In this document: one piece after another, positions 48,871 to 53,902 of the stretch
Layout: each line of letters begins with the position of its first letter
How positions within the stretch are numbered: the first letter of the stretch is position 1
Program-made: the position numbers and the translations under genes
The notes under the pieces: model-generated
Database searches by the model: none
What the model saw: the letters and a program-made list of their open reading frames with translations, nothing else
What the model was told of the DNA's origin: nothing
From: Shewanella sp. 10N.286.48.A6
GTDB taxonomy: Bacteria > Pseudomonadota > Gammaproteobacteria > Enterobacterales > Shewanellaceae
Direction of reading: 5' to 3'
DNA length: 64,000 nt
Assembly: GCF_002873135.1 (NCBI RefSeq)
Contig: NZ_MCVI01000021.1
Location: forward strand, 1-64,000

Positions 48871-49078
48871 GTGCTCGGCCGCATAGGCCGCTAATAATTC
48901 AAAACAATGCTCAACCATACGCACCTCAGCGTGCTCGGCCGCATAGGCCGCTAATAATATGGATAACTGCAGTGTGTCATATGAAGGAATGTGCTCGGCC
49001 GCATAGGCCGCTAATAATATGGGCCCCAACGTCGCTGGTGTGCTAGGTTGGAATACGGCCGAATAGGCCGATAGGAGC
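48871..49078 (+). CRISPR. Short type I-F CRISPR array with terminal atypical repeat
   Basis: Three identical 28-nt repeats start at 48871, 48931 and 48991 (opening GTGCTCGGCC, ending CTAATAAT; hairpin CGGCC-GCATA-GGCCG). Spacers are 32 nt: 48899-48930, 48959-48990 and 49019-49050. The fourth repeat (49051-49078) is diverged on both sides (GAATA opening, ATAGGAGC end) but keeps the CGGCC/GGCCG stem. An atypical repeat beside the homing spacer is characteristic of I-F3 transposons. Confidence 0.95.
49019..49050 (+). other. Homing spacer that targets the 3' end of oadB
   Basis: This third spacer matches the oadB coding strand at 52843-52812 in 26 of 32 positions (mismatches at spacer positions 6, 9, 15, 24, 25 and 31). 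It encodes MGPNVAGVLG in the same frame as OadB. It is the spacer between the last regular repeat and the diverged repeat. Confidence 0.92.
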
Positions 49079-49145
49079 TAACAAGGAAGAAAAGCATTAA
49101 ACCTTAGAGTATTTAGAGTTCTACTCAGCCTGAATCGATTAAATA

Positions 49146-50126
49146 TTAGATAGTTAAGTCAGAATGGACTTTGACTTTTCTATTTCGGTTATTCCTAAAA
49201 TAATCTTCCCAACCAATAATGTTAGAGGGGTCAGCTAGCATCTCTTTCGTTACTGATGTTTTAAATGGGTTTTTCCAAGTCGATGGCTTATCACCTGAAG
49301 ATAGCTCTGAAGCATAAAGAAAATCACCTTCTGTGAGGCAATCTTCATTATTCTCAATAGCATGAACTGAAGCATGATAAATCAGATTTCTCAATGAACG
49401 CATATTCCCTTGAGAAAACGCATAAAGCTTTTTCTGCATTAATGCAGTGTCCAAGCCTGAGCGTTTATTAAATGGTAACGCTTCATCAAGCCTCTTAAGA
49501 AAACCTTCAAAAATAGCCTTTTCATTTAGATAACTAAAAGGTCTCAGATGAAACTGAATTGAGAATCTCCCATTGAGTTGACTATTTGCATCTAAAACCA
49601 CTTTAGAATATGGCATTCCAAACAAAATAATAGGACATTTAGATTTATTGATGAGCATCTTCAACCAATCACCAACCCGAGCTAATATCTTGTTAGATGT
49701 TTTTTCCACCAAATGTTGGAATTCGTCGATGATTATGAGCTCAACTTTTAAGTCTTTAACCAGCTGTACTATTCTATGGGTCAATATTGCGATATCTGTT
49801 TCATATAAAGCTAAAGGATCATTGATTGCGAGCAGCATTTCTCTGGCAGCATCAACAGGTTTCGCGTTCTCTGGAAGCTCTATATACCACACAGGAAGTA
49901 CGTCGCCAGTATGTGTAGAATCACCTGGATTATTTTTCAAATACTTTTTTATAATTGATGTTTTCCCAACTCCGGATGCACCATAGACCATCATACATGA
50001 TGGTTCAGATTCGCGATCAGAGTACTCTCGACAACGCTCTACATGCTTTAAAATTTGTGTAACATTAGGCGTAGAAATGAAAGCTTTTCTCGCTTTTTGA
50101 GCACGAATATAATCATTATTATCCAT
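49146..50126 (-). CDS. tnsC: TnsC, AAA+ regulator of transposition
   Basis: The 326-residue ATPase has Walker A YGASGVGKTS (about 48-57), Walker B LIIIDEFQHL (about 135-144) and later sensor motifs (FSQGNMRSLRNLI). It polymerises on DNA at the TniQ-Cascade complex and recruits TnsA and TnsB. It is the last gene of tnsABC and is convergent with the cas operon, with the array between them. Length matches I-F3 TnsC proteins. Confidence 0.94.
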   Translation of the reverse strand: MDNNDYIRAQKARKAFISTPNVTQILKHVERCREYSDRESEPSCMMVYGASGVGKTSIIKKYLKNNPGDSTHTGDVLPVWYIELPENAKPVDAAREMLLAINDPLALYETDIAILTHRIVQLVKDLKVELIIIDEFQHLVEKTSNKILARVGDWLKMLINKSKCPIILFGMPYSKVVLDANSQLNGRFSIQFHLRPFSYLNEKAIFEGFLKRLDEALPFNKRSGLDTALMQKKLYAFSQGNMRSLRNLIYHASVHAIENNEDCLTEGDFLYASELSSGDKPSTWKNPFKTSVTKEMLADPSNIIGWEDYFRNNRNRKVKVHSDLTI

Positions 50127-50138
50127 AACCTCCCCCTG

Positions 50139-52697: not shown

Positions 52698-52764
52698 TAT
52701 CAAGTTATAGTTGGATAAAATATCAATTTATGGTCATAAATATCACTTTATGGTTGTATCGACA
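52698..52764 (-). repeat. Transposon right end with three TnsB-type binding sites
   Basis: Read inwards from 52764 on the minus strand: TGTCGATACAACC then ATAAAGTGATA (site 1, to about 52741), ACCATAAATTGATATT (site 2, 52719-52734), CAACTATAACTTGATAT (site 3, 52698-52713). The 20-22 bp spacing and the CCATAAA-TGATAT core are those of I-F3 ends such as Tn6677. Confidence 0.9.
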
Positions 52765-52769
52765 ACTCT
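52765..52769. other. Probable 5-bp target site duplication copy (ACTCT)
   Basis: The five bases just outside the terminal TGT. Tn7-like elements duplicate 5 bp. The partner copy at the left end was not found, so this rests on position only. Confidence 0.6.
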
Positions 52770-52771
52770 GG

Positions 52772-53902
52772 TTAGCCTAATACCGCAAGTAGTACACCTG
52801 CAGCAACAGCACTACCTAATACACCAGCCACGTTTGGCCCCATAGCATGCATCAGCAAGAAGTTTTGGTTATTAGCTTCAAGACCCACCTTGTTAACAAC
52901 GCGCGCCGCCATCGGCACTGCAGAAACTCCTGCTGCGCCAATCAATGGGTTAACTTTGCCACCAGATAGCTTAGACATGAACTTCGCCATTAATACCCCT
53001 GAAGCAGTACCAATACTAAATGCCACGGCACCTAAAATAAGAATACCCAAGGTTTCAATGCGTAAGAACTGTTCTGCCTGTAATTTAGAGCCTACAGCTA
53101 AACCTAAAAAGATAGTCACAATATTGATAAGCTCGTTTTGCGCGGTAGAAGATAGTCTATCAACCACGCCAGACTCACGCATTAAGTTACCTAAACAGAA
53201 CATGCCCACTAAAGGCGACGCCGCTGGTAGGAACAAAATCGTTAGACCGACAACCATCAAGGGAAAGATAATTTTCTCTTTCTTACTGACTTCACGTAGC
53301 TGCTCCATTTTGATGCTACGCTCTGACTCATTGGTTAATAGACGCATAATTGGCGGCTGAATTAACGGCACTAATGCCATGTATGAATAAGCTGCAACAG
53401 CAATCGCACCTAATAAATCAGGGGCTAGTTTTGAGGCTAAGAAAATCGCAGTTGGACCATCTGCACCACCAATAATCGCAATGGCTGCGGCGTCAGTCAT
53501 GCTGAACTCAAAACCCGGCACCACATTAAGAGCAATTGCACCTAATAAAGTCGCAAATATCCCGAATTGGGCTGCAGCGCCCAACAATAAGGTTTTTGGG
53601 TTAGCGATTAATGCACCAAAATCGGTTAATGCCCCCACGCCCATGAAAATCAGTAATGGAAATATGCCGGTCTCAATGCCCACATGGTAGGCGTACCAAA
53701 GTAAGCCGCCTTCTTCAGTGAAACCCGCATTTGGAATATTCGCCAGTATGGCACCAAACCCAATAGGCAATAATAGTAATGGCTCGAAGCCTTTTGCTAT
53801 TGCGAGATACAGTAATAAACCGCCTATTGCCATCATAAATAATTGATCAAGAGCGAAGTTAGCAATGCCTGTCTCAGACCAAAAGGCCAGTAATCCTTCC
53901 AT
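52772..53902 (-). CDS. oadB: Sodium-pumping oxaloacetate decarboxylase, beta subunit
   Basis: The 376-residue membrane protein couples decarboxylation of carboxybiotin to sodium export. It has about ten hydrophobic segments and the OadB blocks LLPIGFGAILANIPNAG (about 45-61), IIGGADGPTAIFLASKLAP and the final GPNVAGVLGSAVAAG, which the transposon guide targets. It is 8 bp behind oadA. The transposon is inserted 7 bp after its stop codon, leaving the protein intact but removing its original downstream sequence, including any native terminator. Confidence 0.95.
   Translation of the reverse strand: MEGLLAFWSETGIANFALDQLFMMAIGGLLLYLAIAKGFEPLLLLPIGFGAILANIPNAGFTEEGGLLWYAYHVGIETGIFPLLIFMGVGALTDFGALIANPKTLLLGAAAQFGIFATLLGAIALNVVPGFEFSMTDAAAIAIIGGADGPTAIFLASKLAPDLLGAIAVAAYSYMALVPLIQPPIMRLLTNESERSIKMEQLREVSKKEKIIFPLMVVGLTILFLPAASPLVGMFCLGNLMRESGVVDRLSSTAQNELINIVTIFLGLAVGSKLQAEQFLRIETLGILILGAVAFSIGTASGVLMAKFMSKLSGGKVNPLIGAAGVSAVPMAARVVNKVGLEANNQNFLLMHAMGPNVAGVLGSAVAAGVLLAVLG
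52812..52843 (-). other. Protospacer in oadB matched by the homing spacer
   Basis: The minus strand from 52843 to 52812 pairs with the spacer at 49019-49050 at 26 of 32 positions. The two bases 5' of it are CT, acceptable as the relaxed CN PAM of I-F3. Its PAM-distal end is separated from the transposon end by 47 bp (52765-52811), in the usual range of about 46-55. Confidence 0.9.

Follow-up and report, generated by a model that had tools for sequence, protein, structure and literature searches.

We report that a transposon carrying its own clustered regularly interspaced short palindromic repeats (CRISPR) system sits directly behind oadB in Shewanella sp. 10N.286.48.A6, and that the terminal spacer of its array matches the 3' end of that gene. 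The right-hand part of this element, of type I-F3a by its gene content and ends, lies in the window, by which we mean the whole stretch of 64,000 nucleotides analyzed here (contig NZ_MCVI01000021.1, positions 1 to 64,000; C21 in our numbering). The element has very probably homed to oadB through TniQ-Cascade loaded with the matching guide, as judged from sequence comparison. A first-pass annotation, made from the window alone, had described the geometry as that of guide-directed insertion, a reading now supported by the spacing, the target-site duplication, a sister genome in which the site is empty, and a second case in Shewanella subflava.

Spacer 3 of the array matches the 3' coding end of oadB

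The features on which the finding turns are the following.

52772..53902 (minus strand): oadB, the attachment gene, intact (Pfam PF03977, E 4e-159)
52844..52845 (minus strand): CT at the position of the protospacer-adjacent motif (PAM), 5' of the protospacer
52812..52843 (minus strand): protospacer, the oadB 3' coding end (codons M-G-P-N-V-A-G-V-L-G), 26/32 to spacer 3
52765..52769 (plus strand): target-site duplication ACTCT, with its partner at C36:88542-88546, outside the window
52695..52764 (minus strand): transposon right end, a TGTCGATA terminus with three TnsB-like repeats, in register with the left end
49019..49050 (plus strand): spacer 3, the putative oadB homing guide

Spacer 3 agrees with the minus strand of oadB (52843-52812) at 26 of 32 positions, with mismatches at positions 6, 9, 15, 24, 25, and 31. 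It can be read in frame as the same ten codons, with four of the six mismatches at the third position of a codon; two (6 and 24) are at every-sixth positions, and Cascade flips out every sixth nucleotide (PMC12774636). The protospacer is separated by 47 bp (52811 to 52765) from the right end, TGTCGATACAACCATAAAGTGATATTT, which starts at 52764 with its TGT running downwards and has ACTCT on its host side. The oadB open reading frame (ORF), stop codon included, ends at 52772, which leaves a gap of 7 bp to the right end. The degree of the match, the CT, the 47-bp spacing, and the 7-bp distance beyond the stop codon had all been claimed in the first-pass annotation and were obtained again on recomputation.

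The same annotation had allowed that the match might be no better than chance, an explanation that we rejected. The second-best site for spacer 3 in the 64-kb window reaches 20/32, shuffled spacers (2000) reached at most 23/32 anywhere in the window and at most 21/32 at the exact oadB site (200000 shuffles), and by the binomial distribution 4e-4 matches of 26/32 would be expected in 4.65 Mb, both strands counted. For spacers 1 and 2, the best matches in the window, themselves excluded, are 19 and 20, and neither has a match at E 1 in the plasmid and phage collections. The whole array likewise has no match among plasmids, in which TnsA finds relatives at <60% identity only (75 records).

The PAM position is CN in all 74 oadB ends caught by a pattern scan (in 71 of the 129 Shewanella genomes compared, the window's own included), a scan that reached at most 71 of the 111 genomes with oadB. 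The position lies within a GCN codon, which accounts for the CN, and would suit an effector that prefers CN. VpCAST, a CRISPR-associated transposon (CAST), has a PAM preference of CN and an insertion spacing of 49 bp (PMC12774636).

The element is of type I-F3a

In the window, the array (48871-49078) lies between tnsABC on the minus strand and a tniQ-cas operon on the plus strand, with the features below.

51955..52635 (minus strand): tnsA (PF08722)
50139..51962 (minus strand): tnsB (PF09299, rve)
49146..50126 (minus strand): tnsC (PF05621 TniB; PDB 7rzy, Tn6677 VchTnsC, E 2e-133)
49051..49078 (plus strand): degenerate terminal repeat, like the other repeats at 18/28 positions, hairpin kept
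48871..49018 (plus strand): CRISPR array, three identical 28-nt repeats (48871, 48931, 48991) with spacers 1 and 2
48137..48736 (plus strand): cas6f (PF09618)
47097..48134 (plus strand): cas7f (PF09615)
45185..47146 (plus strand): cas8f-cas5f fusion (PADLOC Cas85f, E 6e-245)
44016..45191 (plus strand): tniQ, Cascade type, 391 amino acids (PADLOC TniQ_1_I-F, E 2e-150; PDB 6lnb, E 5e-167)
41673..41903 (minus strand): small Cro/C1-type helix-turn-helix gene, 76 amino acids, candidate regulator

This is the gene content of type I-F3a (tnsA, tnsB, tnsC, Cascade-type tniQ, cas8/5 fusion, cas7, and cas6), accompanied by TGT ends, TnsB repeats, and a 5-bp duplication. As assessed by structure matches, TniQ is closer to 6lnb (E 5e-167) than to 7u5d (3e-41), 6pif being matched as well, and the best match of Cas8/5 is 9vtq (of the group 9vtp-9vtr), followed by 6lnb. 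We take 6lnb to be the Vibrio cholerae Tn6677 TniQ and 7u5d to be of the Tn6900 type (I-F3b). By these comparisons the element is a type I-F3a transposon, nearer Tn6677 than I-F3b. In type I-F3a transposons the homing guide is under the control of an Xre-family regulator, RtaC; the small Cro/C1-type gene at 41673-41903 is a candidate for some regulatory role here. The attachment gene is oadB instead of guaC or yciA, which we regard as usual rather than defining for I-F3a because a review describes attachment as "mostly limited" to four sites (PMC11406308). Because oadB and tnsA share their reading direction, transcription from the host might run on into tnsABC.

A part of the element's ORFs was scanned. 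Among these, no match to Cas1 or Cas3 was found, and the sole TniQ seen is the Cascade-type one, with no second TniQ. This bears on whether a TnsD-like protein selector brought the element to oadB, the spacer being incidental. Some I-F3 elements do carry a second TniQ, for parE (PMC11406308), but here the only one seen belongs to Cascade, the distance from spacer match to transposon end is that of guide-directed insertions, and the oadB spacer is precisely the one that this array has in common with that of the S. subflava element described below. We therefore give a protein selector almost no credence, and regard attachment to oadB as likely RNA-guided.

The left end and an empty site

Two relatives with an unoccupied oadB (G031 and G028) have their post-oadB genes in common, and none of these genes is present in the window. 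The first of them was located on another contig of the window's genome, C36, where ACTCT (88542-88546) adjoins a left end that starts at C36:88547 with TGTTGAAACAACCATAAGTTGATATTT and agrees in register with the right one. The ACTCT duplication proposed in the first-pass annotation, which had no view of this contig, is thus complete. The final 20 bases of C36 are the initial 20 of the window contig, and this 20-mer occurs nowhere else in the genome. We infer that the two contigs join directly, in which case the element would measure 53,136 bp. Two other candidate ends were discarded. An outer TGTTGAAACA at C36:88532 was rejected since a TnsB site follows the inner copy only, and ACTCTTGT at 33323 was dropped as a left end, being without a row of TnsB repeats while an in-register left end is found on C36.

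The empty-site comparison proposed in the first-pass annotation was made with a sister genome (G123), in which the site is unoccupied and OadB is listed at 100% identity. When the two flanks of the element were joined, they gave one alignment to it, with 92.5% identity over 4454 columns. Past the junction it holds ∼19 extra bases, AGAGC TGTTTCAATAACAGTAATT. By eye, these correspond to a 15-bp stretch, TGTTTCAACAAGAGT, which lies outside the left end here and was omitted from the join. The outer left flank (C36:88527-88546) repeats ACTCTTGTTGAAACA, and the empty site holds a similar sequence; a 10-bp transposon-end-like sequence (AGAG-TGTTTCAA) is present in both. This TGTTTCAA-type sequence could be the footprint of an element that had occupied the same base earlier and was then lost.

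Separately, we note that the insertion parts the oad genes (window 52772) from a hairpin and T-run that follow oadB in the sister genome (L113, ∼2417-2460; by eye).

A second element behind oadB in S. subflava

The first-pass annotation had suggested looking in other genomes for oadB-adjacent elements and their spacers, and among the 129 genus genomes (one of them only 52% complete) S. subflava FYR11-62 (G034) was found to have one. Its element lies behind oadB with the right end at 85151 and the left end at 102598 (17,448 bp), a GGATT duplication, and a spacing of 49 bp. The array has four spacers, the last of which is the oadB guide, followed by a similarly degenerate repeat. The guides of the two elements agree at 30/32 positions, differing only at positions 6 and 24; by eye, the other three S. 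subflava spacers are unlike window spacers 1 and 2. The S. subflava element also contains a partial second tnsA beyond tniQ (L032:11421-11742; 82 amino acids, 85% to window TnsA, 92% DNA identity over 320 bp).

A TniQ match (E 0.001 or better) was obtained in 20 of the 129 genomes but, besides the window's own, it is close only in S. subflava (82%), the others being at 25-37%. A pattern combining repeat tail and oadB spacer was found without mismatch only in the window genome and in S. subflava; the other 74 matches in the genus are oadB itself, with ATGC before the protospacer codons in each. A similar pattern gave two matches, each with two mismatches, in 329 genomes from the family of G470 (a genome with a guaC element, see below), as against five for a reversed control. 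The single match among viral contigs (L144) was taken as chance, since at E 1e-4 its contig matched neither Tns nor Cas proteins nor OadB. The two oadB elements form one group (support 100/100) among guaC, yciA, folE, and HAD elements when 18 TnsB rows are placed in a tree, and they likewise form one group in a TniQ tree of 8 rows.

The second case would not be independent if one ancient oadB insertion had been inherited by both species. Element and host genes have indeed diverged about equally (TnsB 93%, TnsC 94%, OadB 92-93%), as expected of joint descent. Against this, the duplications are perfect in each element yet differ at two of five bases (AGAGT versus GGATT in oadB orientation), so that both copies would have had to undergo like changes; the spacings also differ (47 versus 49 bp), and the sister genome is empty. 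The disagreement between two intact duplications, and between the two spacings, favors separate landings, and we consider a single ancient insertion unlikely.

The paired guides also bear on whether the guide is a passenger, acquired from the chromosome of the host once the element was already in place by another route. In favor of this, the scanned ORFs showed no cas1, and the guide was therefore probably made elsewhere. Nevertheless, the guides are inexact to their present hosts (26/32 and 22/32), unlike a recent copy, whereas they match each other at 30/32. A passenger guide is accordingly very unlikely in our judgment, and homing by means of the guide is the reading we retain.

Attachment genes of related elements and host gene content

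We scanned a collection of genome contigs (84,980 species) by TnsC alignment and two peptide patterns, a procedure that detects only genes holding one of the two patterns, and obtained 53 loci. In 32 of these (L059-L090) compared with the element's proteins, the attachment gene was determined in 15; of the remaining 17, one (L067) was omitted as its contig begins inside tnsB and 16 as distant (TnsC ≤40%, no close Cas). The 15 attachment genes are guaC in 12 loci, yciA in one (L064), a HAD-family hydrolase gene in one (L060), and oadB in one. guaC was assigned by Pfam for L061 and by eye from protein ends for the others, that of L065 being a C-terminal part only with a broken reading frame; protein families were assigned in one locus of each kind of attachment gene. 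In L060 (Photobacterium obscurum), the right end lies behind the hydrolase gene and the contig ends just past tnsC, before any array. L061 (Vibrio renipiscarius) is located at guaC with a close TnsABC, a right end at about 7360, and a left end near 17989; no Cas match at E 1e-6 was found in this 21-kb locus, including the ∼10.6 kb between the ends.

A close TniQ was also found in 4 of 394 genomes drawn from the order, namely the window's, S. subflava, G176 (taken as Moritella sp. 24), and G470. The G470 element is at guaC, and that of G176 is at folE (GTP cyclohydrolase I), with a 26/32 guide, a 50-bp spacing, and a right end at C1:1758147 (L130, L121, L122). Nine comparison loci have both array and right flank in reach, and an attachment guide was found in six. 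The guaC guides match at 25-27/32 in L065, L066, L071, and L073 and at 24/32 in G470, and the distance to the right end is 48-50 bp in the four measured (L066, L073, G176, and G470). In the guaC, yciA, and folE elements read, the guide stands behind an atypical repeat, whereas both oadB elements have it at the end of the array, preceded by a canonical repeat.

GuaC (at 82% identity or better) is found in only 17 of the 129 genus genomes, being missing from 112, and oadB is found in 111. The window genome and S. subflava each have only a 35% match to GuaC, presumably GuaB. The usual guaC address is thus missing in both oadB hosts, and oadB is common in the genus.

Cargo

The cargo between 833 and 35737 is likely a set for the utilization of sulfated galactan. 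It comprises two GH16 enzymes, a GH127, three sulfatases, a TonB receptor and a transporter, together with a 2-keto-3-deoxygalactonate kinase and aldolase and galactose pathway genes. A 22-bp sequence occurs at window 41529-41550 (minus strand) and C36:88769-88790 (plus strand), and at these two genome sites only (≤2 mismatches); the copies are inverted around most of the cargo and may be the ends of a nested element. Two regions, 37914-39380 and 42503-43927, hold candidate defense cargo. The genes are those of a KAP NTPase, which matches PADLOC PDC-S20 (E 7e-159), and of a RadD-like helicase preceded by a gene of 175 amino acids.

Discussion

In the proposed route, a CRISPR RNA (crRNA) made from spacer 3 would be loaded into TniQ-Cascade, the loaded complex would bind the oadB 3' end, and this binding would direct TnsABC to a point 47 bp downstream for insertion with the right end leading. 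Spacers 1 and 2 may serve spread by plasmids or phages, the collections of which yielded no target for them. By sequence, the arrangement is that of crRNA attachment to a conserved gene end at a spacing of about 48-50 bp, with 47 bp here and 49 bp in S. subflava.

Several observations count against this account. In S. subflava, the agreement between the guide and the oadB of the same genome is no more than 22/32. Mismatches 25 and 31 of spacer 3 are PAM-distal and fall within segments (25-29 and 31-32) whose mismatching abolished or impaired VpCAST transposition (PMC12774636), although natural guaC and folE guides are likewise mismatched at 25 (L065, L071, and G176). No sigma-70-like promoter was found in 48740-49160. 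In the nine comparison loci, no attachment spacer reaching 23/32 was found in L070 or L088, and for L064, the yciA locus, the best ungapped match is 19/32. The C36-C21 join depends on a 20-bp overlap, and the sister genome, with its extra bases, is not base for base the joined site. Finally, yciA is present in both oadB hosts and yet unused, which weakens the argument from guaC; the absence of guaC cannot, therefore, be the whole reason for the use of oadB.

Among the closest known systems is Tn6677 (VchCAST, I-F3a), which gives the best matches to the element's TnsC and TniQ and likewise has TGT ends and a 5-bp duplication; Tn6677 is at guaC rather than oadB. Compared with the guaC loci examined, the cas operon here opposes tnsABC with the array between them, and the homing spacer closes the main array and follows a canonical repeat. 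Another element, that of HE-45, lies downstream of IMPDH/guaC (PMC6360697). VpCAST and the VPaI-7 elements (yciA, I-F3a) share with ours a homing spacer beside an atypical repeat, a CN PAM, and insertion 49 bp downstream (PMC12150760, PMC12774636), but their homing spacer is set apart in an atypical array of its own, flanked by imperfect repeats (PMC12150760). In a survey of 602 Shewanella genomes, the I-F3 "group-3" elements, which group with VchCAST, have the same order (tnsABC, array, cas6-cas7-cas8/5-tniQ) and opposite orientation; the sites named for them are rsmJ, cobO, ParM/StbA, and hypothetical genes (PMC12452197), and here it is oadB. The Moritella folE element also has I-F3a proteins, a 26/32 guide to the 3' end of its attachment gene and 50 bp to its right end, and differs in its target and in the atypical repeat before the guide.

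The usual sites are guaC and yciA for I-F3a and ffs and rsmJ for I-F3b, with parE reached via a second TniQ (PMC11406308), in agreement with the four genes listed in the first-pass annotation. Its view of oadB as a new-looking site holds in part. No report joining oadB or oxaloacetate decarboxylase with CAST or Tn7-like transposons was found in the open full texts, a body that excludes supplements and key surveys; the one paper holding oadB, transposon, and CRISPR together (PMC6537148) treats oadB in a passage on citrate fermentation. On the other hand, the Shewanella survey has a table reporting "other loci", and "oad" is absent from its main text, its supplementary Table S4 lying outside this coverage (PMC12452197). 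Four loci account for 94% of homing events (PMC12774636), which puts about 6% elsewhere, and folE, too, is an additional site, not being among the usual ones in the available text of PMC11406308. With this qualification, oadB appears to be a new site for a known machine with a re-aimed homing guide.

We are less sure of a further step, in which the lineage gave up a guaC guide for one to oadB as it entered Shewanella, a genus in which most genomes have oadB and most lack guaC. More tentatively still, the I-F3a address might be a rewritable guide that tracks host gene content, changed from guaC to oadB in Shewanella, where it is retained as the final spacer with a degenerate repeat after it, and likewise to folE in the Moritella lineage. 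Homing to oadB might then have recurred, leaving the TGTTTCAA-type footprint.

I-F3 elements have been described as nearly locked to four attachment genes. The oadB lineage, in hosts that lack guaC, would be natural material on how such an address changes, and would offer a clean way to test whether the genes present in the host decide which guide survives. For insertion tools in Shewanella, the position behind oadGAB is also a candidate safe site.

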